NCBI RefSeq assembly: GCF_004681965.1
Contig: NZ_SMLL01000005.1
Span: forward strand, 372,001-436,000
Length of the DNA stretch: 64,000 bases
Source of the DNA: Ramlibacter rhizophilus
GTDB taxonomy: Bacteria > Pseudomonadota > Gammaproteobacteria > Burkholderiales > Burkholderiaceae_C
Direction of reading: 5' to 3'
The position numbers and the translations under genes are program-made. How positions within the stretch are numbered: the first letter of the stretch is position 1; each line of letters begins with the position of its first letter. Under the pieces are notes generated by a model that did not search any database, was not told the origin of the DNA, and worked only from the letters and a program-made list of their open reading frames with translations. Shown piece by piece: positions 16 through 16,667 of the stretch.

Positions 16-564
16 ATGGACATCGACTACCGCAGCGTCTTCGACCTCGCCCCGGTGGGGCTGTGCGTGTCGCGCAACCGGCACATCGTGGACTGCAACC
101 GGCAGCTGTGCGAGATGTTCGCAAGCGACCGCGAAGCCCTGATCGGGCAGTCCTTCCAGGTGCTGTACCCGAGCGTGGACGAATACGAGCGCCTGGGCGC
201 GCGCATGACGCCCATCCTCAATGCGCGCGGCCACTACGCCGACGACCGCATCATGATGCGCGCCGGCGGCGAGGTGTTCTGGTGCCACGTGACCGGGCGG
301 GCGCTCAACCGGGCGGCCCCGCACGAAGCGGGCATCTGGTCCTTCGAGGACCTGAGCGCGCAGCGCCCCGTGAAAGCCGAACTCACGGCCCGCGAGCGCG
401 AGGTCGCCGCCCGGCTGCTGGACGGCATGACCTCCAAGGAGATCGGCAAGACCCTGGCCATCAGCCATCGCACCGTGGAGATCTACCGCGCGCGCCTGAT
501 GCGCAAGTACAAGGCGAACACCACCGCCGACCTGGTGCACAAGCTCATGGCGGGGGCTGCGTAG
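16..564 (+). CDS. PAS domain-containing LuxR-family transcriptional regulator
   Basis: A 182-residue cytoplasmic regulator. Residues about 5-115 look like a PAS sensor fold, with the typical opening FDLAPVGLCVSRNRHIVDCN and a closing stretch ending in WSFEDLSAQR. Residues about 122-180 are a LuxR/FixJ helix-turn-helix: LTAREREVAARLLDGMTSKE followed by IGKTLAISHRTVEIYRARLM. There is no receiver domain, so the input is presumably a ligand or redox signal on the PAS fold; no haem or flavin residue is evident. AGAGGG just upstream serves as a ribosome-binding site for the ATG. It lies 71 nt before the trehalose-6-phosphate synthase on the same strand, which suggests but does not prove that it controls that gene. 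The ligand is unknown. Confidence 0.88.
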   Translation: MDIDYRSVFDLAPVGLCVSRNRHIVDCNRQLCEMFASDREALIGQSFQVLYPSVDEYERLGARMTPILNARGHYADDRIMMRAGGEVFWCHVTGRALNRAAPHEAGIWSFEDLSAQRPVKAELTAREREVAARLLDGMTSKEIGKTLAISHRTVEIYRARLMRKYKANTTADLVHKLMAGAA

Positions 565-570
565 CAGGGC

Positions 571-586
571 CTTTGCATAATGGCCG
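571..586 (+). promoter_or_regulatory. possible -10 element ahead of otsA
   Basis: The sequence TTTGCATAATGG at the 3' end of the regulator gene holds a CATAAT -10-like box at 576-581. The same GCATAATGG string occurs in the stronger promoter candidate at 53176-53181. No convincing -35 box is seen, so this is weak support for a separate otsA promoter. Confidence 0.25.
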
Positions 587-635
587 GTTCCCCATCCCAC
601 CCGCGCGCCAGCGGCCGCGGGCGAACCTGCACTTG

Positions 636-2885
636 ATGAAGACCCTCCGACTCCAGCTTCGATTCCTCCTCCCCCTGCTTCTCGCGCTCGCCGGCGCGGC
701 CTACCTCGCCTCGTCGCTGCTGGACCAGCTCACCATGCGCTGGTTCACCCGCGACCTGAACGTGCGCGGTGCCGCCATCGCGGCGGCACTGACCGACACC
801 GTCGGCGACGCCCTGAGCGAGCGGCGCCCGGCGCGGCTGCAGGCGCTGTTCGAACGCGCGACCAAGGACGAACGGCTGGTGGCCATGGCCGTGTGCGGGC
901 AGGACCGCAATCCCCTGCGGCGCAGCCCGTCCTTCCCGACCGACCTGAGCTGCCGTGACATCGAATCCGTCGCCGCACAGGAGGACCCGCGCGTGACCGT
1001 GGCGGGCGGTCCGGTGCACCTGGGCCTGCACGAGATCACGCTGGAGAACGGCCAGCGCGTGTCCATCGCGCTGATGCAGGACGTGCGCTTCGCCGAGCTG
1101 CGCAGCCAGAACACGCAGCGCTACCTGCTGGCGTTCATGGGCGGGCTGGGGCTGCTGGTGGCGCTCATCACCATGGTGGTGGCGCAACTGAGCTGGCGCG
1201 GCTGGATGGCCGGCGCGCGCTCGCTGCTGCGCGGCGACGGGCTGCTGCTGCCGCCCACCGGGACCGTGTCCACCACGGCGCCCGAACTGGAACCCCTGGC
1301 CCACGAGCTGCGCCACCGGCTGCGCGACCTGGAGGACGAGTTCCGCCGCGCTCAGGGCATGGAAACCTCCTGGAGCCCCGAGCGCCTGCGCAGCCTGCTG
1401 CAGACGCAGCTGCGCGGCGACCAGGTCATCGTGGTCTCCAACCGCGAGCCCTACATCCATGACCAAAGCCCCACGGGCGTGGTCGTGCGCCGGCCGGCCA
1501 GCGGTCTCGTGACGGCGGTGGAACCCGTGATGCGGGCCTGCTCGGGCACCTGGATCGCGCACGGCGGCGGCTCGGCCGATCGCGAGACCGTCGATGCCCA
1601 CGACCGCGTGGGCGTGCCGCCCGAACACCCCGACTACCAGCTGCGCCGCATCTGGCTGAGCGAGGAGGAAGAGCGCGGCTACTACTACGGCTTCGCCAAC
1701 GAGGGCCTGTGGCCGCTGTGCCACGTGGCCCACGTGCGGCCGGTGTTCCGCGAGTCAGACTGGCAGCAGTACAAGGCGGTGAACCAGCGCTTCGCCGACG
1801 CGGTGGTGGCCGAGGCGCGCAGCGAGGACCCGGTGGTGCTGGTCCAGGACTACCACTTCGCGCTGCTGCCCGCGATGATCCGCGAACGCCTGCCGCGGGC
1901 GACCATCCTCACCTTCTGGCACATCCCCTGGCCGAACCCCGAGTCCTTCGGCATCTGCCCCTGGCGACGCGAGATCCTCCAGGGCATGCTGGGCAGCACC
2001 ATCCTGGGCTTCCACACGCGCTTTCACTGCAAGAACTTCATGGAGACGGTGGACCGGCTGCTGGAGGCACGCATCGAGCCCGAGCACGCCACCGTCACCT
2101 TCGGCGGCGCCGAGACGCTGATCGAGAACTACCCCATCTCCATCGAATGGCCGACGCCCGAGACGGTGGCGCGCTGGGCGCCGGTCGCGCAATGCCGGCA
2201 GGCCGTCATCGATCGCCTGCAGCTGCCGCCCGACGCGCGCATCGGCGTGGGCGTGGACCGCTTCGACTACACCAAGGGCATCCTGGAGCGCTTCCATGCC
2301 GTCGAGCGCCTGCTGGAGAAGTACCCCGAATGGCGCGGCCGCTTCGTCTTCGTGCAGGTCGCCGCGCCCACCCGCAGCGACCTGGAGGAGTACCAGGCCT
2401 TCCAGGACCGCATCCAGCGCGTCACGCAGCGCATCAACCGCCGCTTCGGCCAGCCCGGCTACGAGCCGGTGCGGCTGCTGGCCACCCACCACGACCACGA
2501 TGCCGTCAACGAGCTGTTCCGCGCCGCCGACCTGTGCGCCGTGACCAGCCTGCACGACGGCATGAACCTGGTGTGCAAGGAGTTCGTCGCCGCGCGCGAC
2601 GACGAGCGCGGGGTGCTGCTCCTCAGCCGCTTCGCCGGTGCGGCCCGCGAGCTGCGCGAGGCGCTCATCGTCAACCCCTACCACGTGGAAGAGACCGCGG
2701 ACGCCATGCACCGCGCCCTCACCATGGCCGAGCCCGAGCAGCGCGAGCGCATGGCCAGCCTGCGCACCACCGTGCAGGAGAACAACGTCTACCGTTGGGC
2801 CGGACGCATGCTGGCGGATGCGGGACGGCTGCGGCTGCGGGACCGCATCCAGGCCAGGGTGGAGAGAGAAGGGTCCAGGGGCTAG
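636..2885 (+). CDS. otsA: membrane-anchored trehalose-6-phosphate synthase
   Basis: A 749-residue protein. Residues about 264-740 are a GT20 trehalose-6-phosphate synthase, which joins UDP-glucose and glucose-6-phosphate; the strand [13 protein letters not shown], the glycine-rich HGGGSADRE and the donor-site motif [10 protein letters not shown] are visible. Unlike the roughly 470-residue soluble E. coli OtsA, it has an extra N-terminus: a membrane segment at about 7-28, an extracytoplasmic stretch of about 130 residues with two cysteines, a second membrane segment at about 163-187, and a HAMP-like linker before the catalytic domain. That is the layout of a chemoreceptor or histidine kinase. 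No otsB phosphatase is adjacent. The start is the first ATG of the hydrophobic leader. Stress or desiccation protection is the likely role. Confidence 0.9.
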
Positions 2886-12881: not shown

Positions 12882-13352
12882 ATGGCGGCGTGGTCGGGCA
12901 GCCTGAAGCCGCCCCCAGCGCTTGCCTCCAACGTGCCCGTCACCGCTTTCATCGTCGAAGACAGCCTGGCCATCCGCGAGGGATTGTCCGGCGCGCTGTC
13001 CGAGATGGCCGGCATCGAGACCACCGGCACGGCGGCGAGCGAAGGTGAAGCCCTGCGCTGGCTGGACGAGGCGGGACAGCCCTGGGACCTGGCCATCGTG
13101 GACCTCATCCTCGAAGGCCAGGGCAGCGGTCTGGGCGTGCTGCGGGCCCTGCGCACGCGACAGCCCGATCAGAAGGTGGTGGTCCTCACCGCCACGGCCA
13201 GCAAGGCGGTGCGCGAGCAGTGCATGGCGCTCGGCAGCGACGAGGTCTTCGACAAGTCCATGGAGTCGGATGCACTGATCGCCTGGTGTGCGGCCTTCGC
13301 CGATGGCCGCCGGGACGGTGCGAGCGGTTCCCGGGAAGCCGGCGAGCGCTGA
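12882..13352 (+). CDS. stand-alone response regulator receiver
   Basis: A 156-residue protein with one receiver domain and no output domain. The acidic pair Glu26-Asp27 (FIVEDSLAIREGL), the phospho-acceptor Asp74 (LAIVDLILEGQGSG), the switch Thr103 (VVLTATAS) and Lys125 (VFDKSME) are all canonical. The true start may lie some 15-20 residues further in, because the first 20 residues (Pro/Ala-rich) precede the fold; no other start has better ribosome-binding support. It is 36 nt after gcvP and converges on the GAF histidine kinase of the KaiC cassette, so it is a natural candidate substrate for that kinase. Partner assignment is inference. Confidence 0.85.
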   Translation: MAAWSGSLKPPPALASNVPVTAFIVEDSLAIREGLSGALSEMAGIETTGTAASEGEALRWLDEAGQPWDLAIVDLILEGQGSGLGVLRALRTRQPDQKVVVLTATASKAVREQCMALGSDEVFDKSMESDALIAWCAAFADGRRDGASGSREAGER

Positions 13353-13370
13353 TTGCAGCAGGCGCTGCAA
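13353..13370. terminator. hairpin between convergent receiver and kinase genes
   Basis: TTGCAGC, loop AGGC, GCTGCAA: a perfect 7-bp stem directly after the receiver stop codon and 21 nt before the kinase stop codon. There is no T run on either strand, so termination is possible but not certain. Confidence 0.35.
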
Positions 13371-13391
13371 CGTCTCTGTTGCGACGATCGA

Positions 13392-14543
13392 CTAGACGCG
13401 GCGCGGCAACTCCACGCGCACCGCCGTGCCGGCACCTTCGGCCGAGGTCACGCTCACCTTGCCGCCGTGGGCCTCGACGATGTGCTTGACGATGTACAGG
13501 CCGAGCCCGACGCTGCGGTTGAGATTGGTGAGCTCGGCCGAAGCCCGCCGCATGGGCTCGAACAGGTGCGGCAGCACCTCCGCCGGGATGGCCGGGCCGT
13601 CGTTCTCCATCACCAGCGCGACGATGTCGGCCGCGGTGCCGTCCGTCGTGATGCGAATCGTCGACTGCTTCGGGCTGTAGGCAATGGCGTTCGAAAGCAG
13701 GTTTCCGATGACCTGGGCGAGGCGGTCGGGGTCCCATTGGCCCTGCGCGTTGCCGCTGTGGTGCAGCGAGAAGGTGCGTTCGGGATGGGCAATCTCGACC
13801 TCTTCGACCACCTGGCGAACGATGCCATGCAAGTCCGTCGCCTTGCGCCCGATCGGTATGCCGCTGCCAAGCCGCGCCTGCGTGAAGTCGAGCAGGTCCC
13901 GGATCATGTCCGAGGCGCGCCGCCCGGCGGTCTGGATGCGTGTGATCAGCTTGTTGACTGCGGCCGGCTCGAGCTGCTCCCAGCGCGCCAGGACGCTCGA
14001 CGCCAGCATGATCACCGCAACGGGGTTGCGCAGGTCATGGCTGACGATGCCGATGAGCCGTTCGCGGAATTCGGCGGTCTCGTCCAGGCGCGACTTCTCC
14101 AGCGCAACCGCTGCCTGGTCGGCCAGCGCCGAGAGCAGCCATTCGTCGTCGTCCTCGTCGCTCGTGCCCTCGGTGGTGGGCTTGGCGACGGCGAGCAAAC
14201 CGGTCACGTCGCCCCCCGCAACCAGCGGCACACCCAGGAAACGCTCGTTCGGTCCCTTGACGAGCAGGGCTTCCAGGCGGGCGATGAGGGTCTCCTGCAG
14301 CGGCTCGTGGAAGGTGTCCAGCATCGCGTCGTCCAGCCCGAAGGACGCCTGCACCGACAGCAGCCCCTGGTCGTCGGTCAGCATGAGGACCGAGCGATGC
14401 GACTCCAGCAGCTCAGCGGCCCGGCGGACGGTCAGGTCGAGGACCTCGCCCAGCGAGACGGCATAGGTCAGCGCGCGGCTGATCTCCGTGAGCTTGCGCA
14501 GTTGCTGGGCCCGCTTGTCCACCTGGAAGGAGCCGAGCGCCAT
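13392..14543 (-). CDS. GAF domain sensor histidine kinase of the KaiC cassette
   Basis: A 383-residue soluble kinase. Residues about 25-155 resemble a GAF domain (LTEISRALTYAVSLGEVLDL through FLGVPLVAGGDVTGLLAVAK). The H box is FRERLIGIVSHDLRNPVAV with His169; the N box is IGNLLSNAIAYSP, and GLGLYIVKHIVEAHGG is the G2 box. No membrane segment is present, so it senses a cytoplasmic cue or a partner. The ATG at 14543 lies one nt after the kaiC stop, so the longer reading to 14612 was rejected. It is the third gene of a receiver-kaiC-kinase unit. The phosphoryl acceptor may be the convergent canonical receiver at 12882-13352. Confidence 0.9.
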   Translation of the reverse strand: MALGSFQVDKRAQQLRKLTEISRALTYAVSLGEVLDLTVRRAAELLESHRSVLMLTDDQGLLSVQASFGLDDAMLDTFHEPLQETLIARLEALLVKGPNERFLGVPLVAGGDVTGLLAVAKPTTEGTSDEDDDEWLLSALADQAAVALEKSRLDETAEFRERLIGIVSHDLRNPVAVIMLASSVLARWEQLEPAAVNKLITRIQTAGRRASDMIRDLLDFTQARLGSGIPIGRKATDLHGIVRQVVEEVEIAHPERTFSLHHSGNAQGQWDPDRLAQVIGNLLSNAIAYSPKQSTIRITTDGTAADIVALVMENDGPAIPAEVLPHLFEPMRRASAELTNLNRSVGLGLYIVKHIVEAHGGKVSVTSAEGAGTAVRVELPRRV

Positions 14544-14544
14544 G

Positions 14545-15957
14545 TCATCCCACCTCGATCCCGTTGGCGGTGATGGCCAGGTCGTGCTCGTCCATGTCAT
14601 GGGCGATGCCACGGGCCTTCACCACGCGCAGCGTCCGCTGCGCGCGGCGGCCTTCGAACTGGATGCTCAGCAGCAGGACGTTGTCGGCCAGGGCGCTCAT
14701 GCGCGTCTCGGTGAACATGTCCTTGCCGATGGTCTCGTAGGTGAACACGCTGGAGACGCCCTCCACCGCGAAATGCTGCGCCAATGCATACAGGTAGCTG
14801 TGCAGGCGGTGCGGGTCGGTGGTCGTCATCATCAAGTCGCCGACCGCGTCGACCACGAGGCGCCTGATACCCGACGCCTTCACCGTGCGGTAGATCGTCG
14901 CGACGATGCTGTCGATCTGCAGTTCCACCGGCGAGACGTAGTAGAAGTGCAGGCCCTGCGCCTGGGCCTGCTTCGCATCCAGCCCGAATGCCGACAGCTG
15001 GACCTCCAGCTGGGTCGGGTTCTCCTCGAAGGACACGTACATGCAGGGCTCGTTGCGCCGAACGCCTTCGATGACGAACTGCATGGCCAGCGTCGTCTTG
15101 CCCGCGCCCGTCTGGCCCAGCACGAAGGTCGAGCGCCCGCGCCGCAGGCCGCCGTCCAGCAGCTTGTCCAGGCCGTCGATGCCCGTGGGCACGCGCTCGG
15201 TCAGCAGGTCATAGGCGGGTGGACGTGCGGGGCTGACGAGCCGGGGGAACACCACCAGCCCATCATCCGAGATGCGGAAGCCATGCAGGCCTTCCATGTA
15301 CGCACTGCCGCGCAGCTTCAGCACGCGCAGGTAACGCTCGTCGCGCGAACCGAGCTTGTTGCGCGCCAGCTCGACCATGCTGTCGGCCACCGCGAACTCG
15401 GGGTAGGTGGAAATCTGGTCGGCGCTGTACTCGCCAACCAGGAAGGCGGTGGTCTCGTAGGCCGTCAGCAGGCCCGCCACCTCGTACAGCATCTTGCGCA
15501 TCTGCGGCACCGAGGTCGACAGGTCGTGGATGGCCTTGAACGAGTCGATGACGATGATCTGGGGGCGCATCTCGGTGATGGCCTGCGCGATGATGTCGAC
15601 GAGCGCACCCACCCCTTGCTCTGCAAGCTGCTCGCCGATCGAGCTGTACTGGATGACGGTGCCGAGCTTGCTCTCGTCGTAGAAGCGGAACTGCTGTAGG
15701 TAGCGCACGACCTTGTCCACCGGCTCGGACAGCGTGGTGAAGAACAGGATGGGGCGGCCACCCTCCTGGGCGTTGGCGAACATCAGCCGTTCGGCCAGGA
15801 TGGTCTTGCCGCTGCCCGGCTCGCCCATCAGGATGTTGATGGAGTGGGCGGGGAAGCCGCCACTCAGCACGGTGTCGAGCTCCGGGTTGCCGGTGCTCAG
15901 GCGGTCGAGCGTCTTCGTTTCAGGTGGTTCTACACCTGCTGCAGGGAAGGAGCTCAT
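14545..15957 (-). CDS. kaiC: KaiC-like double-RecA ATPase
   Basis: A 470-residue protein with two KaiC/RecA domains. Domain I has Walker A GEPGSGKT (45-52) and Walker B IIVID (134-138); domain II has Walker A GQTGAGKT (281-288) and Walker B LVVDA (367-371). The catalytic glutamate pair is intact in domain II (Glu311-Glu312 in YVSFEENP) but is Ser77-Glu78 in domain I. In the domain II segment TETRMSALAD, Ser421 aligns with phospho-Ser431 of cyanobacterial KaiC and Ala422 with phospho-Thr432. No kaiA or kaiB is in the window. Its start overlaps the upstream receiver stop by 4 nt (ATGA), and the kinase follows after 1 nt. A timing or signalling switch role is inference. Confidence 0.93.
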   Translation of the reverse strand: MSSFPAAGVEPPETKTLDRLSTGNPELDTVLSGGFPAHSINILMGEPGSGKTILAERLMFANAQEGGRPILFFTTLSEPVDKVVRYLQQFRFYDESKLGTVIQYSSIGEQLAEQGVGALVDIIAQAITEMRPQIIVIDSFKAIHDLSTSVPQMRKMLYEVAGLLTAYETTAFLVGEYSADQISTYPEFAVADSMVELARNKLGSRDERYLRVLKLRGSAYMEGLHGFRISDDGLVVFPRLVSPARPPAYDLLTERVPTGIDGLDKLLDGGLRRGRSTFVLGQTGAGKTTLAMQFVIEGVRRNEPCMYVSFEENPTQLEVQLSAFGLDAKQAQAQGLHFYYVSPVELQIDSIVATIYRTVKASGIRRLVVDAVGDLMMTTTDPHRLHSYLYALAQHFAVEGVSSVFTYETIGKDMFTETRMSALADNVLLLSIQFEGRRAQRTLRVVKARGIAHDMDEHDLAITANGIEVG

Positions 15958-16553
15958 GGGGAGGTGGCCTTTCGACGGTTGGCTTCGATGAGCGACTGCA
16001 CGGTGGTGATCAACCGTTGTTCGGCCAAAGGTTTCATGAGGAATGCGTCAGCGCCCGCTTCGGCGGCGCGGCTGCTGGCGGCAAGAATGCTGAACACGAG
16101 GACCGCGACCTGCTTGGTGCGCTCGTCCTGCTTGAGCTGGCGGCACAGCGCCAGCCCGTCCAGCTTGGGCACCAGGACTTCGGTGATGAGGACATCGGGG
16201 AGCTGCTCGCGGGCTTGGGCAAGGGCGTCGCGGCCGTCGGCAGCGAATGCGACCTGGAAGCCGGCCTGCTGCAGGAAATAGGCCTCCAGTTGCCGCACGT
16301 GGGGATCCCGCTCGACAACCAGGACCAGCAGTTGGGTGCCGCGCACCGCCGGCTCCGCAGCAAAGGCCGCGCCTGCCTGGGCGGGCAGCGGAGGGGGATC
16401 AGCGGTCAGTTCGTTGTCCAATGGGGTCCAAAAGAGGCTGGATCCTTTCAGGAGACGAGCGCTTGTCGATCGAGGCGACGCGGCCGGCCAACGCGGATCG
16501 ACGCTGTCCGGCGCTCGACGGGGCAGGCCATGGTACCCCAGGCCACCCTGCAA
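15954..16553 (-). CDS. degenerate receiver-domain protein of the KaiC cassette
   Basis: Residues about 70-190 form a response-regulator receiver, but key positions are changed: the phospho-acceptor Asp is Glu125 (VLITEVLVPKLDG), and the acidic pair is replaced in LVLVVERDPHVRQL by Glu-Arg. The switch position is serine (VLVFSILAAS) and the lysine is kept (FLMKPL). A glutamate at the acceptor site cannot take the normal acyl-phosphate and may mimic a locked state. The first 60 or so residues are Pro/Ala-rich with no recognised fold, and the start at 16553 is uncertain. The 4-nt ATGA overlap with kaiC implies coupled translation. Confidence 0.78.
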   Translation of the reverse strand: MQGGLGYHGLPRRAPDSVDPRWPAASPRSTSARLLKGSSLFWTPLDNELTADPPPLPAQAGAAFAAEPAVRGTQLLVLVVERDPHVRQLEAYFLQQAGFQVAFAADGRDALAQAREQLPDVLITEVLVPKLDGLALCRQLKQDERTKQVAVLVFSILAASSRAAEAGADAFLMKPLAEQRLITTVQSLIEANRRKATSP

Positions 16554-16667
16554 AACCGGACCGTTGCATCCGCAGGAGTCGCACGACCTCGGGCCGAGCG
16601 AGCTTTGGCACTCGTCGTGACGACCAATCGCTTCACAGACCGGGCCGGGTGCCAGTGTTCCCGGAAC

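Follow-up and report, generated by a model that had tools for sequence, protein, structure and literature searches.

What does KaiC do in a bacterium that keeps no clock? The role of the protein in clockless bacteria is largely open, and a three-gene cassette of Ramlibacter rhizophilus poses the question in compact form: a double-domain KaiC-like ATPase is encoded there between a degenerate receiver and a GAF histidine kinase. The cassette lies in a stretch of 64,000 nucleotides that we analysed as a whole (the window; assembly GCF_004681965.1, contig NZ_SMLL01000005.1, positions 372,001 to 436,000), and plain coordinates below are window positions. We read the cassette as a non-oscillating KaiC-based switch that gates the co-encoded kinase and has the pseudo-receiver as its protein partner, with a probability of about 0.57. 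A KaiC that is read out by two-component parts is more likely than the known clock, and there is probably no clock. The initial annotation, made from the sequence alone, had proposed such a switch in place of a clock, and this part is supported. It had also counted the canonical receiver facing the cassette as a member of the unit, which turned out to be wrong by this one gene.

12882..13352, plus strand: canonical single receiver (PF00072) facing the cassette; host backbone, outside the cassette
13353..16667, no strand: interval from the facing receiver to the DsbA-like gene, the putative inserted segment
13392..14543, minus strand: GAF histidine kinase of 383 amino acids (GAF, HisKA, HATPase_c)
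14545..15957, minus strand: double-domain KaiC-like ATPase of 470 amino acids (two PF06745 stretches)
15954..16421, minus strand: degenerate (pseudo-) receiver (PF00072); the stop is certain, the start at TTG 16421 a guess

The coordinates and the Pfam matches bear out three tightly packed leftward genes. The receiver frame stops at 15954 and therefore overlaps the KaiC start by 4 nucleotides, while the kinase ATG at 14543 lies 1 nucleotide past the KaiC stop that ends at 14545. All three frames are open, and chance open reading frames are ruled out by the Pfam matches of the genes. For the pseudo-receiver, possible starts ahead of the domain are TTG 16553, TTG 16421 and GTG 16346, with no in-frame ATG upstream of the domain; the longest, mechanically called frame starts at TTG 16553 and has the PF00072 match at its residues 77-185. 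No sigma-70-like promoter was found in the region. A terminator-like hairpin lies at 13353-13370, where cassette and facing receiver converge, as weak evidence because the region has 2 sites of this kind and shuffled sequence would be expected to give 2.0.

Is this KaiC of the clock type? The two PF06745 stretches reach 259 bits in all (E = 3.2e-77, over the curated Pfam cut-off), solved KaiC chains are matched with E values down to 8e-48, and both P-loops are present (GEPGSGKT and GQTGAGKT). Among the NCBIfam families shown none reaches its cut-off for this protein, the best being NF006799 (circadian clock protein KaiC) with 227 bits against 408. In the alignment to solved KaiC chains, T416, S421 and A422 fall on the positions of Thr426, Ser431 and Thr432 in S. 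elongatus KaiC numbering. One of the two clock phosphosites is kept (S421) and the second is A422, exactly as initially annotated. The glutamate pair of the CII domain (E311-E312) is kept, while the CI pair is S77-E78, not E-E. The last residue of the protein aligns to residue 475 of a solved KaiC of 518 amino acids, so the C-terminal tail is missing. In cyanobacterial KaiC this tail carries the A-loop and the KaiA site.

The partners of the clock are missing as well. The genome (4.59 Mb, 12 contigs, 99.99% complete) contains 0 matches each for PF07689 (KaiB) and PF07688 (KaiA) at E<=1e-3, whereas S. elongatus, the positive control, matched both profiles. Neither gene had been seen beside the cassette in the initial annotation, and no kaiB turns up elsewhere in the genome either. 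A hidden KaiB or SasA-type N-terminus was also sought, with no match at E<=1e-3. A single-site timer or hourglass, with slow phosphorylation and dephosphorylation of Ser421 and a KaiA-like role for the pseudo-receiver, could build on the retained T416 and S421, and cited work reports a single site at Ser431 as sufficient for a temperature-compensated period (PMC11832031). Since neither KaiB nor KaiA is matched in the genome, CI has an S-E pair and the C-terminal tail is lost, we consider such a timer very unlikely.

The two genes flanking kaiC belong to two-component signalling. The pseudo-receiver matches PF00072 with 75.7 bits, over the Pfam cut-off, and keeps Ser at the Thr/Ser position as well as Lys; its acidic pair is E-R, and Glu occupies the phospho-Asp position. 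Judged by these residues, it cannot accept phosphate in the usual way, and the prediction that follows from such a degenerate receiver is that it should work unphosphorylated. In the kinase, GAF (residues 54-171 of the mechanical open reading frame), HisKA and HATPase_c are all over the Pfam cut-off, and the H, N, F and G2 boxes are present (SHDLRNP, NLLSNA, LFEP and VGLGLYI). The kinase core thus appears intact.

How often KaiC occurs in such company was counted at 54 other KaiC genes: 2 from the same genome, 14 from relatives, 1 from the phylum sample, 14 from plasmids, 15 from the order sample and 8 further ones. They were collected as matches to the window KaiC or, in nine chosen genomes, as matches to PF06745, and form a non-random set with some close relatives. 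Neighbours were classed by a kinase-core profile and by a receiver profile made without the two window receivers; since both profiles were built partly from the loci that were then counted, the following numbers are to be read with this overlap. Directly downstream of KaiC we observe a kinase in 19 loci, a kinase with receiver in 8, a lone receiver in 18 and none of these in 9, so that 45 of the 54 genes are followed by a kinase, hybrid kinase or receiver. The nine remaining loci include an HWE kinase (L062), a GGDEF-EAL protein (L155 and L164) and kaiB (L126). None of the 18 lone receivers has lost its acidic pair or its phospho-Asp. Directly upstream, one conserved family accounts for 30 loci and a kinase or hybrid kinase for 6, with neither in 18; a receiver is upstream in 0 of the 54. 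The mirror image of the window order, kinase-KaiC-receiver, is found six times (L010, L063, L073, L074, L141 and L142). The receiver-KaiC-kinase order of the window does not recur among these 54 loci, where its parts are found apart from each other or in this mirrored form. The phosphosite pair of the window KaiC is seen again in 6 of the 54 rows (S-A), next to A-F in 23, S-S in 9, S-Y in 5, S-F in 4 and other pairs in 7; several rows have an insertion just before these columns, which makes their pairs less sure.

The protein itself is remote from everything that we could find. The best match outside its own genome comes from the order sample and shows 34% identity (E = 1.8e-78), with 15 of 398 other genomes matching at E<=1e-66 and 32-36% identity. 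Among the relatives, 12 of 60 others match at 1e-60, all of the same genus (31-35%). The phylum sample gave a match in 1 of 397 others at 1e-68, the family sample in 0 of 398 others at 1e-75 and the second class of the phylum in 0 of 385 at 1e-70. Thirty-one plasmid records match with at most 34.7% identity, and 14 of them were fetched; viral contigs gave no KaiC match. A contig scan, which depends on exact short peptides, returned only Thermoplasmatota and other euryarchaeal or archaeal records, with best segments of 22-31%. The large genome searches scored at most four candidates per genome and went genome by genome only within the phylum of the window; in all of these searches together, no match exceeds 36% identity. 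In the tree, which is midpoint-rooted and prints no support value at the node in question, the window KaiC forms a long branch of 1.45 substitutions per site beside a betaproteobacterial cassette clade.

A KaiC-gated kinase is supported by the intact kinase core, both P-loops, the gene overlap and the frequent pairing of KaiC with kinases or receivers at other loci, as well as by the lack of a KaiA or KaiB match in a nearly complete genome. For the hexamer, the contact, the direction of signalling and the output, we infer the following course. KaiC, presumably hexameric and ATP-dependent, would shift its state with the nucleotide load, and single-site phosphorylation at Ser421 may shift this state as well. 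Contact with KaiC would then raise or lower the activity of the GAF kinase. The pseudo-receiver would take part as partner or adaptor, its state being fixed by the Glu or set by a ligand, and would not accept phosphate. The kinase would in turn phosphorylate a canonical receiver encoded elsewhere. One could go further and propose that the stand-alone, Glu-locked pseudo-receiver serves the window KaiC as KaiA serves clock KaiC, which would give a three-protein energy-sensing switch that feeds the kinase without KaiB, A-loop tail or two-site phosphocycle; we regard this extension as improbable.

Four observations weigh against a KaiC-gated kinase. The S-E pair makes the ATPase activity of CI uncertain. 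The G1 box of the kinase is NDGPA, with Asn where most of 19 compared kinases carry Asp (the kinase of locus L009 in the same genome has Asn at this position, too). There is no second example of the receiver-KaiC-kinase order among the 54 other KaiC loci. Finally, stimulation of SasA homologues by KaiC outside cyanobacteria has been judged very unlikely (PMC5520375), so that the contact between KaiC and kinase would need another route.

Does the facing receiver belong to the system? The initial annotation correctly described it as canonical, as the PF00072 match and the retained active-site residues confirm. Matches to a gcvP fragment occur in 57 of 60 genomes of the genus, that of the window included, and the regions downstream were taken from 20 others (L106-L125). 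Orthologues of the facing receiver occur in 16 of these 20 regions with 49-63% identity (tblastn), and KaiC matches in 0 of the 20 at E<=1e-6. This distribution places the facing receiver outside the cassette, as a gene that by its conservation is host backbone and predates the cassette or is independent of it. A four-gene pathway, in which the kinase would phosphorylate the receiver at 12882-13352 and KaiC would set the flux, could draw on the proximity and convergent layout of the genes, on the intact active site of the receiver and on L110, L122 and L125, where a kinase 31% identical to that of the window adjoins the facing receiver. With the receiver present in 16 of 20 regions that lack KaiC, we hold this pathway to be unlikely. 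Weak kinase and receiver matches (25-35%) are seen in many of the 20 regions, and several of them coincide with a homologue of window 22.7-24.3 kb.

The same regions bear on the origin of the cassette, which lies between conserved host genes. In 13 of 20, the receiver match is followed by a convergent DsbA-like match 38-721 nucleotides away, in gaps that are unannotated and could hold small genes. The window has 3.3 kb between the facing receiver and the DsbA-like gene, a space taken up by the three genes of the cassette. Because this gap is near-empty in 13 relatives, the cassette looks inserted, and the lower G+C of KaiC (0.654) and pseudo-receiver (0.659) compared to the window (0.70), taken with the site layout, points to insertion as well. 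Repeated loss elsewhere would be an alternative. At the cassette edges only short or imperfect repeats were found, with no clear flanking pair. The seven other regions deviate: L119 and L121 contain the receiver while a DsbA-like match is absent from the stretch, in L122 the receiver is inverted and the DsbA-like match more distant, L112 lacks the receiver but has a DsbA-like match, both are absent from L106 and L123, and the region of L117 is cut short by a contig end. A recently inserted, decaying cassette without present role would agree with the near-empty site in the relatives, the low G+C and the lost active site of the pseudo-receiver. The three open and tightly packed frames, a third-position G+C of 0.81-0.91 and the kinase core boxes speak against decay, which we likewise consider unlikely and give slightly less credit than the four-gene pathway. 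The spacing of gcvP and the receiver differs between species (L106-L125), with values of about 0.1 to 4.8 kb, which suggests a second variable spot beside the cassette site.

The genome of R. rhizophilus contains two further double-domain KaiC genes:

C7:108413-109780: KaiC of locus L010, preceded directly by a kinase and followed by a receiver
C7:537451-538824: KaiC of locus L009, with a receiver downstream

Three KaiC layouts, namely pseudo-receiver-KaiC-kinase, kinase-KaiC-receiver and KaiC-receiver, therefore occur in one genome without a KaiB match, which makes it usable to ask whether KaiC simply gates two-component kinases. At L010:5985-13862 (minus strand), receiver, KaiC and kinase are part of a signalling cluster that continues with a receiver-kinase, then CheB and a hybrid kinase that carries three receivers. 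Another genome of the genus, G855, has two double-domain KaiC genes. In L126 (G023:C16), a KaiC at 466-2232 (minus strand) with a long C-terminal tail is followed by KaiB (PF07689, 84 bits). A kaiBC pair thus exists in the genus, though not in the genome of the window.

This kind of cassette is already in print for the same genus. The 2011 genome paper of R. tataouinensis reports two kaiC genes in that species, and kaiC beside kinases or receivers without kaiA or kaiB (PMC3164672). It distinguishes three groups of kaiC context. In the third ('black') group, which includes Rta_35460, kaiA and kaiB are missing, kaiC lies near receivers, kinases or GGDEF/EAL proteins in a less conserved arrangement, and KaiC has one or no phosphosite save for a few named exceptions; S-A is listed among the pairs in the legend of Fig. 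S6, and KaiC without two sites is described as probably unable to sustain a cyclic timer (PMC3164672). The window shares the traits of this group, with an S-A pair and with receiver and kinase directly adjacent. L142, presumably Rta_35460, also has an S-A pair. It is arranged as kinase-KaiC-receiver with a canonical receiver, in contrast to the receiver-KaiC-kinase order and degenerate receiver of the window, and about a quarter of the aligned positions are identical between the two KaiC proteins. From the second group, a different cassette type, co-transcription of kaiC with its kinase is reported for Rta_04330/Rta_04340 (PMC3164672), which favours a KaiC-gated kinase. Like the window, this group has a kinase directly downstream of kaiC in a genome without kaiB; its kinases are described with a KaiB/SasA-like N-terminus (Nt_HK) and S-Y, T-Y or S-F sites, whereas the window combines a GAF kinase with an S-A pair, a comparison with Nt_HK made by description only.

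With the cyanobacterial KaiABC and proteobacterial KaiBC systems the window shares, by sequence, the double-domain KaiC fold. It differs from them in having no KaiA or KaiB match, a single phosphosite, no tail and S-E in CI. Known receiver-like partners of KaiC are the pseudo-receiver domain of KaiA, in which the phospho-Asp is lost, and KaiA3, which acts together with KaiB3 and retains this Asp in the majority of its homologues (PMC11372060). Unlike KaiA, the pseudo-receiver of the window stands alone, in a genome without KaiA match. Similar to the window KaiC with its 470 amino acids, myxobacterial KaiC measures 470-514 amino acids in M. xanthus and M. macrosporus; about 60 of the myxobacterial proteins have a single site, nine both and fifty none, kaiB is present in few genomes only and the B-loop is missing (PMC11832031). 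By description, these proteins retain homology to the A-loop, which lies in a stretch that the window KaiC lacks. For Pseudomonas KaiC, stress and biofilm roles without circadian evidence are cited in the same source. Archaeal KaiC-like hubs and KaiC-REC fusions, the latter in six Methanosarcinaceae genera, also tie KaiC-type ATPases to two-component parts (PMC5847659), whereas the window has separate genes in a bacterium. Among the papers listed by searches of an open-access library, a scope that leaves full texts, subscription papers and supplements outside, no title or abstract opening describes a pseudo-receiver-KaiC-kinase operon. What is unusual here is the orphan KaiC lineage, the phosphate-blind receiver in front of it and the apparent insertion site.

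The family upstream of kaiC in 30 of the 54 loci consists of a conserved gene, about 140 codons long, that occurs on chromosomes and plasmids. Its members, on the plus strand, include the following and others:

L015:1037-1492, plus strand: upstream gene
L152:1022-1459, plus strand: upstream gene
L164:1052-1489, plus strand: upstream gene
L062:3532-3948, plus strand: upstream gene
L065:3552-3986, plus strand: upstream gene

Of seven members compared to Pfam, six match nothing at E<=0.01, and the seventh has a weak match below the cut-off; the gene is a candidate KaiC partner. The GGDEF-EAL protein after kaiC in L155 and L164 suggests that, in this clade, cyclic di-GMP turnover may be an output of KaiC besides kinases. 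In L153, the gene after kaiC resembles the same GGDEF-EAL protein by eye.

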